A stretch of DNA of 64,000 nucleotides, taken from positions 2,232,001-2,296,000 of the forward strand of contig NZ_JAFBCM010000001.1 of NCBI RefSeq assembly GCF_016907715.1, given 5' to 3'. Source of the stretch: Tenggerimyces flavus. Lineage in GTDB: Bacteria; Actinomycetota; Actinomycetes; Propionibacteriales; Actinopolymorphaceae. Below the pieces are notes generated by a model. It searched no databases. It was not told the DNA's origin and saw only the letters and a list, made by a program, of their open reading frames with translations. This document shows, in pieces, positions 46,295-55,057 of the stretch; positions within the stretch are counted from its first letter, which is position 1; each line of letters opens with the position of its first letter. Both the position numbers and the translations under genes were made by a program.

Positions 46295-46795
46295 GTGCAC
46301 ATGCACAAGGGCGCACGCAGGCTCATCTCCGTGCTCGCTGCCGCGAGTGCAGTCGTGGCTTTGAGCGCTGCTCCGGCGCTGGCCCGTCCGGTCGACGGTC
46401 CTGTCGGCGCGACGGGCCTCTCCGACACCTCGGAGAAGGCATGGGACCTGTGGAACGAAGGCGGCTGCCTGGTTGGCGAGGGCGCTGCCCAGCTGATCTC
46501 GGCCGCATATGTGGGCGCGCCGTTCATCGCGCGTGACTTCCTGGAGGGCAAGAACCACCTCTCCGAGCCCTCGGAGCTGGCTTGGCTCACCTGGAACGAG
46601 GGTGGCGGCAAGCTCGGCCAGGGTGCTGCTCAGCTGATCAGCTCGGCCTACGTCGGCGCGCCGTTCATCGCGCTGGACTTCTTCAAGGCGTCGCTCGACG
46701 CTACCGCGCCGGAAGGTGCGGAGTGGAAGACGTGGGACGAGCTCTCGCCCGAGGAGCAGGAGTTCATCGGGTACGAGTGCGGCTACATCTTCTAA
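46295..46795 (+). CDS. Secreted protein with 47-residue tandem repeats, unknown function
   Basis: A 166-residue exported protein. The signal peptide covers about residues 1-31 (basic start, hydrophobic core, APALA). The mature part consists of two near-identical units, each with WNEGG, GxGAAQLIS, AYVGAPFIA and DF, then a shortened third (WKTWDELSPEEQEF). The equivalent Trp residues are at 53, 100 and 147, exactly 47 apart. It ends GYECGYIF; cysteines occur in unit 1 and near the end. GTG 46295 was chosen since AAAGGA lies 5 nt upstream; ATG 46301 is the alternative. A strong promoter and terminator suggest high monocistronic expression. No family recognised. Confidence 0.75.
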   Translation: MHMHKGARRLISVLAAASAVVALSAAPALARPVDGPVGATGLSDTSEKAWDLWNEGGCLVGEGAAQLISAAYVGAPFIARDFLEGKNHLSEPSELAWLTWNEGGGKLGQGAAQLISSAYVGAPFIALDFFKASLDATAPEGAEWKTWDELSPEEQEFIGYECGYIF

Positions 46796-47427: not shown

Positions 47428-47745
47428 CGCGGCGTACGCGCTCGAAAAGATCCTCGAAGAATCTTCGCGGACTCGCGTCACCATTCGACTACCGCCGTGT
47501 CTGTGCCGGCGGGGGTGTCCGGAACTCCCGTTCCCGGGGAGCTCCTAGCGGCTGGCCCGAATCGCGATCCATGCTTCCCGGCCATGGTTCGCGACGTCCC
47601 ACGGGCCAGCCGCCACCATCACCCCACGAAGTTGTATGCGCTCGGTGTCAGGAAACCGTTGCCGTCTGTGGTCGGAGGCGTCTAACGTGACGTCGCTGAG
47701 GGGAAAAGCAGTGGGCCGGCCGAGTTGTGTGTCTGGGGGGAGTGG
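47428..47745. other. Intergenic region, no gene seen
   Basis: Holds a short dyad CGAAGA/TCTTCG at 47455-47467 that could end the upstream gene, and the presumed promoter of the sigma-factor gene, not identified. The segment near 47477-47522 resembles one at 43500-43537 (see findings). Confidence 0.5.
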
Positions 47746-49548
47746 ATGACGAGCGATCGATCCGATCGTGAGTTGCTCGACCTTCTGCGCGCCGGTGACG
47801 AAAACGCCTACGGAGAGTTGTGGGAACGCCATCATCCGGCTGCGCTGCGTGCTGCCCGGCAGTTCGATCACAGCACTGAGGCCGAGGACATCGCGGCGGA
47901 AGCATTCGCTCGCGTGCTGGACGCTGTCCGGCACGGGAACGGACCGACCGAAGCGTTTCGCGCGTACTTGCTGCGTGCCGTCTCACGGATCGCGCAGAAC
48001 TCCGCGAGAACTCGCCGTCGCACGGTGGTCTCCGATGACGAGCTCTTACTGGACGAACAGGTCGTTCCGGACGATCCGGCCGTCGAGGCGTTGGATCAGC
48101 ACTACATCGCGCGCGCGTACGAACGGCTGACCCAACCGCAGCGGGAGATCCTCTGGTACGTCGAGGTCGAGCGCACGCCGACCAAGGACGCCGCGGTGCT
48201 GATGGGCATGACCGCGAACGCGGCGGCCGCGATGGCCGGCCGCGCGCGCGAGGCGCTGCGGCGCGAGTACCTGCAGACGCACATCCAGCAGCTCGGTGAG
48301 AACGCGGACTGCCAGCAGACTCTGGACCGGCTGGGCCGGTACGTACGTGACTCGCTCTCGCGGCTGCAGCGCCGTTCGGTCGACCGGCACCTGCGCAAGT
48401 GCGCCTCGTGCTCGCTCGCCTTGGCCGAGCTGCGCGACGTCGGCGCGACGCTGCGCGCGGTGCTCGGTCCGTTGGTGCTGGGTCCGGTGGCGGTGACGTA
48501 CCTCGCGCTCGCCTCCGAAGGCACCAAGCTCGGTGCGTTGGCTCTCGTACCGCCGGATGGTGGCGCCGCCGCGGGTGCCGCGGCCGGCGGTGCCGGCTCA
48601 CCCGGCGGTGGTGGCGGTGGTGGCGGTGGGTCCGGCCCGCCGCCCGCGCAGGCCATCGCGATCGCCGCGGGCGTCGCCGTGGTCGTGGCGGGGATCGCCG
48701 CGGCCGCCGTACTCACGTCGGGCGACGGGAAGAAGGTGCCGAACCCGGGCCCGGTCGCCATCGCGCCCGTGGATCCGGGGCAGCCGAACGAGCCCGCGCC
48801 GGAGCCGAACAACCCGGTGCCGAACCCGCCCAAGCCGCCGGTGCCCGCTCCGTCGGACTCGGAGGAGCCCTCGGAGCAGCCGCCCGACGACTCGCAGCCT
48901 CCGCCCGACCAGGGGCAGCCGTCGCCGGACGACCCGCCGGACCCCTCGCAACCGCCACCTCCGGCACCGTCCCCGACCGACCCGGCGCCGTCACCCACCG
49001 ACCCGGCGCCACAGCCGACGCCGCCCAGGCCGGACCCTTCGCCGACGCCGGAGCCTTCGCCGTCCCCGAGCGATCCCGTGCCCAGCCCGTCGCCGACGAG
49101 TCCGAAGCCACCACCCCCGCCCCCGCCGCCCCCTCCGCCGCCACCGCCTCCTCCGGAGGACCTGGTGGTCGGTGGGCAGCAGCTGACGGACTCGCCGTGG
49201 GTGGACCAGTACGGCCACGACTTCGTGGTCGCACGGGCGCGTGGGGCCAAGCCCGGCGCGAAGCTGACGCTGACGGTCGCCGGCCCGACGCTGCTCACGT
49301 ACATGTCGCCGCCGAGCGGGTCGATCCCGGCCGAGCCTCCGGTGGACAACGACGGCAAGTGGAGCTGCTCGGCGTTCGGGCTGCTGATCCCGAACGGCTA
49401 CGTCTGCGAGGGCAAGGCCGACAGTGACGGCCGGGCGGTCGTCGCGATCGAGACCAAGCGGCTGCTGGACGGGATCCCGTTCCGGGTCAAGGTCACGGTC
49501 GAGAGCACGACCGACGAGGCCAGCACCCGGGTCCCGGTCGACGACTGA
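47746..49548 (+). CDS. ECF-type sigma factor fused to zinc finger, transmembrane helix and Pro-rich exported tail
   Basis: A 600-residue protein. Residues 1-90 are sigma region 2 (DAYGELWERHH-like helix, EAEDIAAEAFARVL); about 115-180 region 4 (LTQPQREILWYVEVE and the HTH). A zinc-finger-type motif follows, His215-x3-Cys219-x2-Cys222, as in anti-sigma factors. Then come a Gly-rich linker, one hydrophobic helix at about 301-326, a Pro-rich stretch of about 145 residues (including a run of Pro), and an exported C-terminal domain (about 490-600) with two Cys. The start ATG 47746 has GGGGGGAG at 4 nt. Such membrane-anchored sigma fusions resemble actinobacterial ECF groups with C-terminal extensions; release or signalling is inferred. 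Confidence 0.8.
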   Translation: MTSDRSDRELLDLLRAGDENAYGELWERHHPAALRAARQFDHSTEAEDIAAEAFARVLDAVRHGNGPTEAFRAYLLRAVSRIAQNSARTRRRTVVSDDELLLDEQVVPDDPAVEALDQHYIARAYERLTQPQREILWYVEVERTPTKDAAVLMGMTANAAAAMAGRAREALRREYLQTHIQQLGENADCQQTLDRLGRYVRDSLSRLQRRSVDRHLRKCASCSLALAELRDVGATLRAVLGPLVLGPVAVTYLALASEGTKLGALALVPPDGGAAAGAAAGGAGSPGGGGGGGGGSGPPPAQAIAIAAGVAVVVAGIAAAAVLTSGDGKKVPNPGPVAIAPVDPGQPNEPAPEPNNPVPNPPKPPVPAPSDSEEPSEQPPDDSQPPPDQGQPSPDDPPDPSQPPPPAPSPTDPAPSPTDPAPQPTPPRPDPSPTPEPSPSPSDPVPSPSPTSPKPPPPPPPPPPPPPPPPEDLVVGGQQLTDSPWVDQYGHDFVVARARGAKPGAKLTLTVAGPTLLTYMSPPSGSIPAEPPVDNDGKWSCSAFGLLIPNGYVCEGKADSDGRAVVAIETKRLLDGIPFRVKVTVESTTDEASTRVPVDD

Positions 49549-49642: not shown

Positions 49643-50749
49643 CTAGCCCGCGAGGCCGAGGGGGACGCGGTCGGGTGGGAGCAGTCGGAAGCCCACCCCG
49701 CGGACTGGCCCGACGCGCAAGGTCACGTCGGCCTCCCGCAGCTTGGCCCGCAGCCGCTTGACGACCGACTGCACCGCGGCCGGGCCGACGTACAACCCGT
49801 CCCACGCGCGGGCGTGCAGCTGCTCGTACGTCCACACCTTCCCCAGCCGGCTCGCCAGGCAGTCCAGGACGAGCAGCTCGCGCGTGGTCAACGGCAGCGG
49901 TACGCCGAGCCAGGAAGCCTCGTGCAACGACGGGTCCACGACCAACCCGTCGCCCGAACGGCGCCCAGCAGGCGCCGGCAGGGCCTCGGACGAGGCCCAC
50001 AAGGTCTCGAACAGCATCCCCAGAGCGGCTGCCAGCTCGCGGTTGCGCACGATGATCGCGACCACCCCGGCCACTCCGGGCGTGACCATCGGCATCACCA
50101 CGTTGCAACCGTCGAACAGCGCGAACTTCATCGGCAGCTCGCCGGGATACACCTTCGCCTGCTCACCGGACGCGATCCAGGACGACAACCTGCCGCCGAT
50201 CGCGGGGTCGTCGAGCACGGTCTGGTCGTAGATGGCCCGCGCCCGTACGCCGCGGCGCAGCGCCGCCACCTCGCCGGTGTTCGAGCCGCCGACCTGGATC
50301 GGGCCGCGAACGACGATGTCGATCGACTCGCGCGCCTCCGCCTGCAACCGCTCGAACCGTTCACCGATCAGACTCGGCGTCCGCAGGATCTCCACGACCT
50401 CGCCCGAGTCGGCGCCGGCGTGCTTCGCGTACAGCTCGACCAGGTCCGGCAGCGCCGCCTCGACGTGTCGCTCCCGGGCAGCGAGCTCCGAGCGCGACGT
50501 GTCCAGCAGCCGCTGCAGCGCGTCGTCCGGTCGCAGCGCGTGGTACCGGCTGTTGTAGCCCGCGCCGGCCTCGATCAGGCCCTTGTCGACGAGCGACCGC
50601 AGGATCAGGTACACGTTCGACCGCGCGGTGCCGGTGCGGTCGGCGATGGCCGCCGCGGCGAGCGGCGACTGGGTCAGCAGGCAGTGGTAGACGCGGGCCT
50701 CGGTCTTCGACAGGCCCAACTGTTCGAGCATCGCTTCGGGGTCCACCAC
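49643..50749 (-). CDS. Regulator with N-terminal TrmB-like HTH and C-terminal OmpR-type winged helix
   Basis: A 368-residue predicted regulator. Residues about 5-75 form a TrmB-type HTH (LGLSKTEARVYHCLL, RTGTARSNVYLILRSLVDKGLI), and about 110-260 a PLD-like effector region as in TrmB proteins (ARESIDIVVRG). The last 95 residues are an OmpR/PhoB-type winged helix: LPLTTRELLVLDCLASRLGKVWTYEQL, VQSVVKRLRAKL and VRGVGFRL. TrmB relatives more often end in a LuxR HTH or nothing. The first GTG of a GTGGTG pair (50749) has GGAG 5 nt upstream. It is convergent with the sigma fusion and divergent from the protease. Confidence 0.8.
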   Translation of the reverse strand: MVDPEAMLEQLGLSKTEARVYHCLLTQSPLAAAAIADRTGTARSNVYLILRSLVDKGLIEAGAGYNSRYHALRPDDALQRLLDTSRSELAARERHVEAALPDLVELYAKHAGADSGEVVEILRTPSLIGERFERLQAEARESIDIVVRGPIQVGGSNTGEVAALRRGVRARAIYDQTVLDDPAIGGRLSSWIASGEQAKVYPGELPMKFALFDGCNVVMPMVTPGVAGVVAIIVRNRELAAALGMLFETLWASSEALPAPAGRRSGDGLVVDPSLHEASWLGVPLPLTTRELLVLDCLASRLGKVWTYEQLHARAWDGLYVGPAAVQSVVKRLRAKLREADVTLRVGPVRGVGFRLLPPDRVPLGLAG

Positions 50750-51082
50750 AAGTTCTCCAGTCGTTGGACGACATGTTCCGTCGAAGCGCATCGACCAGCC
50801 CATACCTCGAGGCCGTGTCTGCCAAAGATCGCCTGACGCGCGACACCTCGCATCCCGCCTGGCCGCGGTGCACGTCGTCACCCATATAACCAATATGAGT
50901 TCCTCCTGCACCACGCCCAGCCGGGCGCGAGGCGCCGCGCGCCATCGCGCTACGCGCGATGACCGGCGCTATTTGCCAGACACGACCTTGCCGGATATGG
51001 CCAGCGCTGCCTCGAATCTGCCCACGAAGCGCACCGGTTGCTGCCCGGGTCGTCTCCTAGGTTCGGCCCCGGGAGGGCACAC
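50750..51082. promoter_or_regulatory. Divergent regulatory region between the TrmB-type regulator and the protease
   Basis: A dyad CATAT-N5-ATATG lies at 50883-50897 and a compact hairpin (CATCGCGC with TAC loop) at 50943-50961. Either could bind the regulator or structure the protease leader. No gene is seen in the 333 bp. Confidence 0.45.
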
Positions 51083-54000
51083 ATGAGCCGGAGTTGGGTA
51101 CGTCGCGCGGTCGTCGCGAGCGTCGCTTTCGCCATCGCCGCCAGCACGATGGTGGGCATCGCTCAGGGGGCAGGCGAGGACAAGATCCGCCCGAAGCTGC
51201 GGCAGCAGCTCGCGGCGGACGAACGCGGTGACTTCTGGGTGCGGTTCGCCGACCGCGCCGACCTGTCAGCCGCGGCGCGGACGAGCGACTGGAACGTGCG
51301 CGGCACGCTCGTCGCCCGGGCGCTCCGCGAGACCGCCGCGCAGAGCCAGGCCTCCGTACGCAAGCGCCTCGATGGCGCGGGCGTCCGCTACGAGCCGTAC
51401 TGGGCGACGAACGCGATCTTCGTCCGCGAAGGCAGCGAACGCCTCGCCGCCGAGCTCGCCGCGCGGCCCGAGGTCGACGCGCTCTACGCGCCCGTCGCGT
51501 ACGCCCTTCCGAAGAAGCTCCCCGGCAAGCAGGTCCGCGAGGTCGAGTCGGTCGAGTGGGGCATCGCGAACATCCGCGCGAACGACGTCTGGCAGCAGTA
51601 CGGCGTGACAGGTGACGGCATCACGGTCGCGAGCATCGACAGCGGCGCGCAGTACGACCACCCCGCGCTCGTCCGCCAGTACCGAGGCAACCTCGGCAAC
51701 GGGACGTTCGACCACAACTACAACTGGTTCGACGCCGCCGGCCTTTGCGCCGACGCGCCCTGCGACGAGCATGGACACGGCACCCACACGATGGGAACGA
51801 TGGTCGGCGACGACGGCGCGGGCAACCAGATCGGCGTCGCGCCGGGCGTCCGGTGGATCGCCGCGAACGGCTGCTGCCCGAGCGACGACGCGCTCATCGC
51901 ATCGGGGCAGTGGATGCTCGAGCCGACCGATCTCGCCGGCCAGCGACCGGACGCCAGCAAGCGGCCGAACATCGTCAACAACTCTTGGGGAACGACCGTC
52001 CCGTCGGACGACCCGTTCATGGAGGACGTCTCCGCGGCCTGGGCCGCGTCCGGGATCTTCGCCGTGTGGGCGAACGGAAACAACGCACCCGGCTGCCGTA
52101 CGACCGCTTCGCCGGGCAGCCGGATCATCAACTACTCGGCGGGTGCGTACGACGAGAGCAACGCGATCGCCTCGTTCTCCAGCCGCGGCTTCGGCCAGGA
52201 CGGCGAGACCAAGCCGAACCTGTCCGCGCCCGGCGTGAACGTCCGTTCCTCCTACCCTGGCAGCGGGTACGTGAGCATGGACGGGACGTCGATGGCGGCG
52301 CCGCACGTCGCCGGCGCGATCGCGCTGCTGTGGTCGGCGGCGCCCGACCTCGTCGGCGACGTGGCCGCGACCCGGGCGCTGCTGGACGGGACGGCGGTCG
52401 ACACTCCGTCCGACGAGTGCGACGGGACGCCGGCGGACAACAACGTGTTCGGCGAGGGCCGGTTGGACGCGTTGGCCTTGCTGGACGCGGCGAACGTGGC
52501 GGAGACCGGGACGCTGTCGGCGACGGTCACGAGCCTCGGCGAACCGCTCGCGGGTGCGCGGGTGCGCGTCGTCGGGCCGGTGACGCGGGAGCGTGCCACG
52601 GGACCGGACGGCCGGTACGCGCTGCCGCTGCCGGCCGGCGCCTACACGATGACCGTCTCGGCGTTCGGACACGCGACCCAGACCGCGCAGGTCCAGGTCG
52701 CGGTCGGGCAGACCACCAGCCGGACGTTCGCGCTCGAGCCCACGCCCGCGGTGAAGGTGAGCGGTCGCGTGCTCGACGGGAGCGGGCACGGGTGGCCGTT
52801 GAGCGCGCGCGTGACGGTGTCCGGCACGCCCGTCGCTCCGATCCTGACGGCCGCCACCGACGGCCGCTACAGCCTGACGCTGCCCGCCGGCGCGACCTAC
52901 ACGCTGCGGGTGGAGTCGCAGTACCCCGGCTACCGGAGCCTGGCGGAAGAGGTCGTGGTCGGCTCCAGGAACGTGACGCGCGATCTCCGTGTGCCTGTTG
53001 ACGAAACGGCCTGCGACGCGCCCGGCTACCACGTGGAGTACGACGGTGTCGGCGCCGAGTTCGACGGCGGCGCGCTGCCCTCCGGCTGGACGGTGACCGA
53101 CGCCGCCGGCACGGGTCAGGTGTGGCGCTTCGACGATCCCGGCCGAAGGTCCAACCGGACGGGAGGAAACGGCGGGTTCGCGATCCTCGACAGCTTCTAC
53201 TACTGGTCGGGTGGGCACCAGGACTCCACGCTGGTCTCGCCGGTCGCCGATCTCAGCGGGCAGTCCGCGCCGGTGCTGAGCTTCCGGCAGGACTTCGACA
53301 AGCACTTCACCGACACCGCGCAGGTCGATCTCAGCGTGGACGACGGTGCGTCGTGGTCGACTGTGCTCGACCAGACCGCGGAAGCGCTCGGCCCGCGGCA
53401 GGAGACGATCCCGATCCCGCAGGCGGCCAACAAGCCCAACGTACGCGTACGATTCCACTACGTCGGGACCTGGGACGACTGGTGGCAGGTCGACGACGTC
53501 GTGCTCGGCAAGCGACTCTGCGTACCGACCGCGGGCGGACTGGTGCTCGGTCACGTACGCGATCGCAACACCGGCTCGGCTGTCGGCGACGCGGAGGTGA
53601 AGCTCGGCGAGCAGGCCGTCCGTACCGGCGACGACGGTACGTACTGGCTGTTCGCCCCGGGCTCCTCGGCGGCGCTGGCGGCGTCCGCGCCCTCCTACAC
53701 GACGCAGTCGCGCACGACGGCGGTCGTGAGTAGCGGCGTACGGACGGTCGACTTCTCCCTCGCTGCCGGACGGCTGTCCGTCGAGCCGGGCGAGCTCTCG
53801 CTGGCCGCACGCGGTGCGCGAGAGGTGCGGCGGTCGTTCACGATCGCCAACACAGGAACGGCTCCGGTCAGCGTCGAGCTGAGCGAACGGAAGGCCGTCG
53901 GCCCGATCGCCAACGGCGCGGGCGCGAAGGTCGTCCAGATCCCCGGCACGTACTCGCCGCTGCCGTTCGCCCAGTCCCCGTTGGCGAACGGGACGACGCC

Positions 54001-55057
54001 CAAGCCCGCGGTCGCGCCGTGGACCGACGTCGCCGACTACCCGATCCGGATCATGGACAACGCGGTCGGCGAGCTGGACGGCAAGATCTACTCGGTCGGT
54101 GGCGTCGACGGCGTGGAGGTGTCGGACCGCGGGTTCGTCTACGACTCGGACGCGAAGGCGTGGTCGGCAATCGCACCCCTGCCGAGTGGACGGGAGAACG
54201 CGGCCGGCGCTTTCGTCGGCGACACGTTCTTCGTCAACGGTGGTTGGGGTCCTGACCTGCGCGCGACGAGGACGACGTTCGCCTACACGCCGCCGACGAA
54301 CACCTGGCGCCGGGTGGCGGACGCACCGATCGCCACGGCCGGCGCGGGTCGCGCCGTGCTCGACGGGAAGCTGTACGTGATCGGCGGCTGCACGAACGCG
54401 TGCGACGGCCAGGACGTGCAGGTCTACGACCCGGCAACGGACTCGTGGCGGCTCGTCGCGAGCTATCCCATGTCCACAGGTCATCCGGCCTGCGCGGCAC
54501 TCGACGGCTCGCTCTACTGTGCCGGCGGCGTGCGGCGCGGTGGGACGGTGTGGCGCAACACGTACGCGTACTCACCCGCCACCGACACCTGGACACCGCG
54601 CGCGGACCTGCCGATTCCCCTGTGGGGCATGGGTTATACGGCGGCGTACGACCAGCTGGTCGTGTCCGGTGGCATCTCGACGGGTGGTTTGACCAACGCC
54701 AGCTACGCGTACGACCCGCGGACCGACAAGTGGTCCGTCCTCCCGGCGGCGAACCGACCGCTGTACCGGGGCGGCAGCACCTGCGGCTTCTACCGCGTCG
54801 GCGGCTCGCCCGTCAGCGGTTTCCAGCCGGTGTCCGACGTGCAGCTGCTGCCGACGTACGGCGACTGCGAGCCGGTCGACGTGCCGTGGCTGGCGCTCGA
54901 CCGTACGACGATCACGCTCGCCGCGGGGGAGAAGGCCCGCGTCACTGTCACCGCCACGGCGCCAGCGCCGGGCACGTATGAGGCAGGGGTGTGGATTCGC
55001 GAGGACACGCCGTACCTCGCCCAACCGCTCGACGTCACGTTGGCGGCCACTAGGTAG
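51083..55057 (+). CDS. Secreted subtilisin-family (S8) protease with Kelch repeats
   Basis: A 1324-residue exported protease. Signal peptide at residues 1-33 (ending IAQGA); propeptide-like region to about 165. The S8 catalytic triad is complete: Asp186 in SIDSGAQ, His232 in GHGTHTMG and Ser403 in GTSMAAPH, with Asn in WANGNN for the oxyanion hole. After the catalytic domain come carboxypeptidase-regulatory-like beta domains (about 475-640), a jelly-roll/MAM-like segment (about 645-815), and Kelch-type units from about 990 to 1250 (GKLYVIGGC, NTYAYSPATDTWTPRADLP). It ends with a beta-sandwich. The ATG has GGGAGGG upstream. It likely degrades extracellular protein. Confidence 0.9.
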   Translation: MSRSWVRRAVVASVAFAIAASTMVGIAQGAGEDKIRPKLRQQLAADERGDFWVRFADRADLSAAARTSDWNVRGTLVARALRETAAQSQASVRKRLDGAGVRYEPYWATNAIFVREGSERLAAELAARPEVDALYAPVAYALPKKLPGKQVREVESVEWGIANIRANDVWQQYGVTGDGITVASIDSGAQYDHPALVRQYRGNLGNGTFDHNYNWFDAAGLCADAPCDEHGHGTHTMGTMVGDDGAGNQIGVAPGVRWIAANGCCPSDDALIASGQWMLEPTDLAGQRPDASKRPNIVNNSWGTTVPSDDPFMEDVSAAWAASGIFAVWANGNNAPGCRTTASPGSRIINYSAGAYDESNAIASFSSRGFGQDGETKPNLSAPGVNVRSSYPGSGYVSMDGTSMAAPHVAGAIALLWSAAPDLVGDVAATRALLDGTAVDTPSDECDGTPADNNVFGEGRLDALALLDAANVAETGTLSATVTSLGEPLAGARVRVVGPVTRERATGPDGRYALPLPAGAYTMTVSAFGHATQTAQVQVAVGQTTSRTFALEPTPAVKVSGRVLDGSGHGWPLSARVTVSGTPVAPILTAATDGRYSLTLPAGATYTLRVESQYPGYRSLAEEVVVGSRNVTRDLRVPVDETACDAPGYHVEYDGVGAEFDGGALPSGWTVTDAAGTGQVWRFDDPGRRSNRTGGNGGFAILDSFYYWSGGHQDSTLVSPVADLSGQSAPVLSFRQDFDKHFTDTAQVDLSVDDGASWSTVLDQTAEALGPRQETIPIPQAANKPNVRVRFHYVGTWDDWWQVDDVVLGKRLCVPTAGGLVLGHVRDRNTGSAVGDAEVKLGEQAVRTGDDGTYWLFAPGSSAALAASAPSYTTQSRTTAVVSSGVRTVDFSLAAGRLSVEPGELSLAARGAREVRRSFTIANTGTAPVSVELSERKAVGPIANGAGAKVVQIPGTYSPLPFAQSPLANGTTPKPAVAPWTDVADYPIRIMDNAVGELDGKIYSVGGVDGVEVSDRGFVYDSDAKAWSAIAPLPSGRENAAGAFVGDTFFVNGGWGPDLRATRTTFAYTPPTNTWRRVADAPIATAGAGRAVLDGKLYVIGGCTNACDGQDVQVYDPATDSWRLVASYPMSTGHPACAALDGSLYCAGGVRRGGTVWRNTYAYSPATDTWTPRADLPIPLWGMGYTAAYDQLVVSGGISTGGLTNASYAYDPRTDKWSVLPAANRPLYRGGSTCGFYRVGGSPVSGFQPVSDVQLLPTYGDCEPVDVPWLALDRTTITLAAGEKARVTVTATAPAPGTYEAGVWIREDTPYLAQPLDVTLAATR

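Follow-up and report, generated by a model that had tools for sequence, protein, structure and literature searches.

Signals from outside a bacterial cell normally cross at least two proteins before they reach a sigma factor. Can a single polypeptide make the whole journey, and if so, how would its sigma factor be held back and let go? The question is raised by one gene in a 64,000-nucleotide stretch of Tenggerimyces flavus DNA (hereafter the window), in which an earlier note, made from the letters alone, had seen one frame encoding sigma regions 2 and 4, an HxxxCxxC motif, one membrane helix, a Pro-rich spacer and an outside domain. All of these parts are present where the note had placed them, in a frame that opens with an ATG at 47746 and runs uninterrupted through 600 codons to a stop at 49546-49548:

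47735..47742, + strand: G-rich ribosome-binding site (GGGGGGAG region), just 5' of the ATG, read from the sequence
47746..49548, + strand: whole gene, predicted 600-aa membrane-tethered ECF sigma factor (open frame; same-layout orthologue in genome G005, locus L036)
47818..48024, + strand: sigma region 2, residues 25-93 (Pfam PF04542, Sigma70_r2, E 7.9e-9; model compared with 4lup)
48103..48258, + strand: sigma region 4, residues 120-171 (Pfam PF08281, Sigma70_r4_2, E 2.3e-6; model compared with 3hug_E)
48310..48411, + strand: fused zinc-finger anti-sigma domain, residues 189-222 (Pfam PF13490, zf-HC2, E 6.2e-7)
48451..48513, + strand: conserved hydrophobic segment directly after the zinc finger, residues 236-256, motif LR..h.P..LG....YL (family conservation)
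48553..48645, + strand: Gly/Ala-rich linker, predicted cytoplasmic, residues 270-300 (composition)
48655..48711, + strand: predicted membrane helix, residues 304-322 (mean hydropathy 2.63, the strongest hydrophobic segment)
48736..49167, + strand: proline-rich stalk, residues 331-474, about 145 residues, ~46% Pro, with a long terminal proline run (composition)
49168..49545, + strand: predicted all-beta outer domain, residues 475-600, ~125 residues (AF2 model; no Pfam family)
49360..49407, + strand: WxC...C motif, W539, C541 and C554 (family motif count)

The gene and its surroundings

A chance open frame was ruled out by the Pfam matches and by the orthologue with the same layout, and a frame fusion or misassembly by the identical fusion in G005 and in hundreds of relatives. 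Third-position G+C rises along the gene from 0.80 (codons 1-180) to 0.97 (codons 481-600), perhaps a trace of separate origins for its two ends. Its upstream region yielded no callable promoter motif for autoregulation; footprinting upstream of the Kribbella-like orthologues (a tentative name, group f3) gave conserved blocks, with no motif transferable to the window gene.

The neighbouring genes, which encode a GyrI-like protein, a secreted 166-aa protein, a TrmB-like regulator and an S8 protease, are not found again next to the relatives. The 166-residue protein (46295-46795, + strand) has a signal-like start and an internal repeat (W..WNEGG...G.GAAQLIS.AYVGAPFIA.DF), without a Pfam match; the regulator (49643-50914, - strand) joins an N-terminal TrmB-type helix-turn-helix to a C-terminal OmpR-type winged helix (Trans_reg_C), and the subtilase (51038-55057, + strand; 1339 residues) carries CarboxypepD_reg domains and Kelch repeats. 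The palindromic repeat GTGATCATGTACGTGATCATGA looks like a REP-type element: it has ~290 copies in the genome (150 forward and 141 reverse at up to 2 mismatches; the control has 0), frequently arranged in inverted pairs ~53 bp apart, and its 11 occurrences in the window greatly exceed chance expectation (3231, 3286, 23986, 24041, 30712, 44051, 44107, 49567, 49622, 55221 and 55277).

An ECF sigma factor fused to its own anti-sigma domain

The matches to Sigma70_r2, Sigma70_r4_2 and zf-HC2 each exceed the curated Pfam cut-off, and the match to TIGR02937 is likewise above cut-off. Regions 2 and 4 are present without region 3, the composition of an ECF sigma factor, and structural matches to solved ECF sigmas agree: modelled region 2 matches region 2 of E. 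coli sigma-E (4lup; Z 14.1, rmsd 2.0, 92 residues), and modelled residues 110-182 match region 4 of M. tuberculosis SigL in its complex with an anti-sigma factor (3hug_E; Z 11.6, rmsd 2.5, 73 residues). A sequence search of solved structures likewise led from the N-terminal part to sigma factors; its hits in residues 448-493 and in the Gly-rich part were of low complexity and were disregarded.

The HxxxCxxC motif is HLRKCASC, at residues 215-222, which supplies H215, C219 and C222, and C189 is probably the fourth zinc ligand; all four are invariant in two family alignments. The domain thus carries the Hx3Cx2C signature of the helical class I zinc-binding anti-sigma domains, with zf-HC2 above its cut-off and its ligands invariant. 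The AF2 model of the inner module (22 rows) has a mean pLDDT of 84.5 but a pTM of 0.43, so the individual domains are good and the arrangement of sigma and zinc finger relative to each other is unsure. By its modelled domains, the protein has the look of a functional ECF sigma factor.

A single membrane pass, with the stalk probably outside

Is the sigma part indeed on the inside, and the other end on the outside? Of 97 family members, 54 have more K+R before the main helix than after it and 14 have fewer, and the mean net charge is +1.3 on the N side and -1.5 on the C side. This bias fits an N-in/C-out helix, which would place the sigma factor inside the cell and the stalk and end domain outside. 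The single membrane helix of the earlier note is therein retained and refined, in that a second, weaker hydrophobic segment exists (238-256, mean hydropathy 1.95), which the family-wide charge counts argue does not span the membrane. Within segment 236-256, Pro is conserved in 95% and Gly in 98% of family members. In class I anti-sigma domains, helix 1 binds region 4 and helix 4 binds region 2 (PMC7406223), which makes this segment a good candidate for helix 4 or for a helix lying on the membrane, and it is probably one or the other.

Stalk and outer domain

Beyond the helix, the spacer is 164 residues long in the window protein and 162 in the orthologue, with a family median of 100, and this length fits the earlier suggestion that it could cross a thick wall. 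The exported domain that follows begins near residue 475, not at 490 as first drawn. As the note had said, it is not a recognised one: nothing in Pfam matched it even at E 10, and neither NPCBM, DUF642 nor any other carbohydrate-binding family appeared at E up to 10. A carbohydrate-binding end domain like that of SCO4117 of Streptomyces coelicolor was ruled out on this ground.

What, then, is this domain? Its WxC...C motif is found in 45 of the 103 outer parts of the family, against 1.1 expected by shuffling, and shuffling the window domain itself produces it by chance 0.4% of the time; Cys541 and Cys554 probably form a disulfide. Structure prediction from 14 remote rows gave a seven-strand, all-beta sandwich with a mean pLDDT of 62 and a pTM of 0.56, a model limited by the absence of the close orthologue L036, which was left out of its alignment. 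Foldseek and VIA-align found best solved matches of Z <=5.8, to Ig-like and YEATS sandwiches, a weak result below the trustworthy level; the Ig-like fold is a low-confidence prediction.

A profile built from the window domain and its orthologue scored 27.8 against the DUF11-like outer parts of relatives, the best of 150 column shuffles scoring 18.8; its formal probability is only 29%, the two-sequence profile being thin. One profile pooling all WxC segments scored lower, and another pooling gave 23%. Pfam DUF11 (PF01345) itself has no match in the window outer domain. DUF11, now called CLIPPER, has an Ig-like fold and belongs to the stalks of cell-surface adhesins (PMC12617251). If its low-confidence model is right, the window domain resembles it in an Ig-like beta sandwich at the cell surface, and the DUF11-like outer parts of relatives share its WxC...C pattern; unlike DUF11/CLIPPER, it has no Lys/Asp/Asn isopeptide triad evident by eye, and carries a cysteine pair instead. 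We consider it likely, if unproven, that this is a divergent surface domain of the DUF11/CLIPPER type. A literature search for DUF11 in combination with sigma factors returned only sigma-factor papers that matched the term otherwise.

A constant inner module with changing outer parts

The orthologue in G005, a genome of the same family, has an identical layout, and the two proteins are 74% identical across the inner part and 42-44% across the outer domain. By Nei-Gojobori estimates, dN/dS is ~0.2 in the inner part, against ~0.5 in the outer domain, so that both are under purifying selection, with the outer one evolving faster. The window-type outer domain was found in G005 alone among 37 relatives and in no further genome among 395 of the class, and just the window genome and G005 passed the strict threshold among the 294 genomes of the order; this exact version is therefore lineage-restricted.

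The inner module is far more widespread: an 11-member alignment of it, scanned against named genomes, picked up at least 589 genome stretches. The 80 loci retained from these come from Amycolatopsis, Demequina, Nocardiopsis, Saccharopolyspora, Nonomuraea, Actinomadura, Arthrobacter and others, and the named organisms among them are actinobacteria. Most relatives have the zinc motif, the membrane helix and a Pro-rich stretch; some end in the Pro-rich tail without a sensor domain, and several have the sigma-zinc-finger part without the outer domain, or even without the membrane part. A paralogue in the same genome (L070, G000:C1:1636552-1637295, - strand) consists of sigma factor, zinc finger and a long (PTPTDPE)n tail with no folded end domain. 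Four proteins of 247-276 residues from Nocardioides-like genomes (L064, L065, L068 and L069) keep the sigma part, and three of the four the HxxxCxxC motif, without a Pro-rich or outer part; they are possible soluble versions.

Among 53 outer parts searched with Pfam, DUF11 was found in 9, NPCBM_assoc in 3 and DUF3344 in 2, with DUF642, cadherin/Big_9, SH3_3 and others once each, and most had no match at all. Mapped onto a tree built from 83 inner modules, the labels of the outer parts switch at least 23 times overall, and the WxC-type label (WxC_Ig) 12 times, at least 7 of them forced by starred branches, all of these counts being approximate as the labels were set by simple rules. Even near relatives diverge, with Actinomadura proteins that have WxC ends beside others that have only a Pro-rich tail. 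On an inner module that stays constant, the outer part has changed repeatedly, as an exchangeable sensor would. The window protein and its orthologue group weakly with Micrococcaceae proteins and with the DUF642 proteins of Streptomyces (SH-aLRT 85-88), apart from the Kribbella-like proteins of their own order.

How the sigma factor might be released

We think it fairly probable that the window protein works as an ECF52-type, one-component transmembrane signalling sigma factor, masked at rest, freed by proteolysis and fitted with an exchangeable outer sensor. At rest, the zinc-finger domain would sit on regions 2 and 4 and keep the sigma factor off RNA polymerase. A cue at the outer domain, perhaps a ligand in the wall or on a surface, would trigger cleavage, outside first and then within the membrane by an M50 site-2 protease; the soluble N-terminal part would be freed, its anti-sigma part removed or unfolded, and the sigma factor would then transcribe its regulon. 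The outer domain would serve throughout as a fast-evolving, exchangeable sensor, in place of which relatives carry DUF11-like, DUF642, NPCBM, cadherin-like or no folded domain. The analysis shows the domain make-up, the orientation bias and the exchange of outer sensors; we infer the masking, trigger and cleavage. M50 proteases are encoded at two places in the genome, among them G000:C1:3698155, weak evidence for cleavage because they are present in all control genomes. The earlier idea that the sigma factor stays permanently at the membrane is unlikely, and the least supported part of the note: the fused class I anti-sigma domain, the result of truncating SCO4117 and the proteolysis of IutY favour conditional release.

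Could release occur without any cutting? A pull or twist passed on through stalk and membrane helix might open the anti-sigma domain, as might an alteration of the zinc site, leaving a sigma factor that is active while tethered or that recruits polymerase at the membrane. The rigid Pro-rich stalk, which differs in sequence between the two orthologues yet is almost equally long in both (164 and 162 residues), speaks for this, and Pinto and Mascher, as cited in PMC5826349, admit conformational change as an alternative. We nonetheless regard it as unlikely, as IutY, the sole sigma/anti-sigma fusion worked out experimentally, uses proteolysis (PMC8999054), and a membrane-fixed sigma factor must reach promoters across the nucleoid. 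The sensor could instead be the zinc finger, reading a cytoplasmic redox or zinc signal in the manner of RsrA or ChrR, with the outer domain merely a wall anchor. The full, invariant C/H/C/C site and the relatives that do without an outer domain, or even a membrane part, suit this idea; yet the zinc sites of membrane-bound anti-sigmas may be purely structural (PMC7406223), and the outer domain is under purifying selection and varies as a sensor would, which leaves the zinc finger a somewhat more doubtful candidate than tethered release.

The topology, too, could be otherwise. If 238-256 and 304-322 both crossed the membrane, the stalk and end domain would lie inside the cell, and the hydropathy of the first segment and the variable number of membrane helices described for ECF52 (PMC5826349) are in keeping with two passes. 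We find this very improbable: the charge bias at the main helix points to N-in/C-out, paired cysteines and domains of the DUF11, NPCBM and DUF642 types are typical of exported proteins, and the conserved Pro and Gly of 236-256 suit a soluble or surface-lying helix. Returning to a one-component sigma factor with its sensor outside, a long shot is that the Ig-like domain and rigid polyproline stalk act as a tethered probe on the wall or a neighbouring surface, with the sigma factor freed when the link is strained or cut, and the probe swapped between lineages. If so, this would be a mechanical or surface-contact sensor wired directly to transcription in one polypeptide, and swapping the probe would change what is felt.

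Proteins of the window type would carry an outside signal to a sigma factor through one protein. Because their inner switch is kept across many actinobacterial families and their outer domain is swapped, they form a natural set of matched pairs, with which to ask what the sensors detect and how the sigma factor is released; the sole studied member is SCO4117. The unnamed outer domain would be a second, different sensor beside the carbohydrate-binding one.

Comparison with known systems

A sigma factor, zinc finger, membrane segment and Pro-rich extension in one chain are the published ECF52 architecture, of which SCO4117 is the studied member (PMC5826349, PMC8999054). The architecture seen in the earlier note is therefore not new, and its remark that related ECF groups with extensions exist is borne out by this record (PMC5826349) and by the hundreds of actinobacterial genes of the scan that share it. 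By architecture, the window protein is of the ECF52 type: it shares with SCO4117 the ECF sigma domain, fused zinc finger, membrane segment, long Pro-rich C-terminal extension and terminal outside domain, and its family shares with ECF52 an occurrence in actinobacteria only, as judged from the named organisms among the 80 kept loci. What is new here is mainly the outside domain: SCO4117-type proteins end in a carbohydrate-binding NPCBM module, whereas the window protein ends in a ~125-residue, still unnamed and probably DUF11-like domain.

Three members of the family were read in Streptomyces sp. NRRL S-337, one NPCBM-ended (L167) and two DUF642-ended (L165 and L166). L167 has the layout of the window protein and, as described for SCO4117/atrA, a TetR (AtrA-like) gene upstream; we recognise it as the SCO4117 counterpart by its NPCBM end and synteny, rather than by direct comparison. 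It falls on another, long branch of the inner-module tree and is not sister to the window sigma part, with low deep support. L165 and L166 have an inner module ~41-43% identical to that of the window protein, the same layout and a place in a shared, weakly supported clade (SH-aLRT 85), and differ in their end domain, DUF642 being another Pfam family.

For SCO4117, a truncated sigma factor restored function only partly (PMC5826349); activation by proteolysis is expected for ECF48, ECF52 and ECF53 alike (PMC8999054). Compared by description only, the actinobacterial groups ECF48 and ECF53 resemble the window protein in a C-terminal fusion with a zinc finger and one or two membrane helices (PMC8999054). 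Predicted glycosyl hydrolase domains, attributed to some ECF52 and ECF53 members (PMC10766802), were not found in the window protein. The one proven case of proteolytic release of a fused sigma factor is IutY of Pseudomonas putida (ECF243; PMC8999054), which, like the window protein, joins a sigma factor to an anti-sigma factor, there membrane-bound, and which is freed by regulated proteolysis, as is proposed for the window protein. In contrast to the window protein, IutY is not described with a Pro-rich stalk and a free outside domain, and it serves iron-siderophore (aerobactin) cell-surface signalling.
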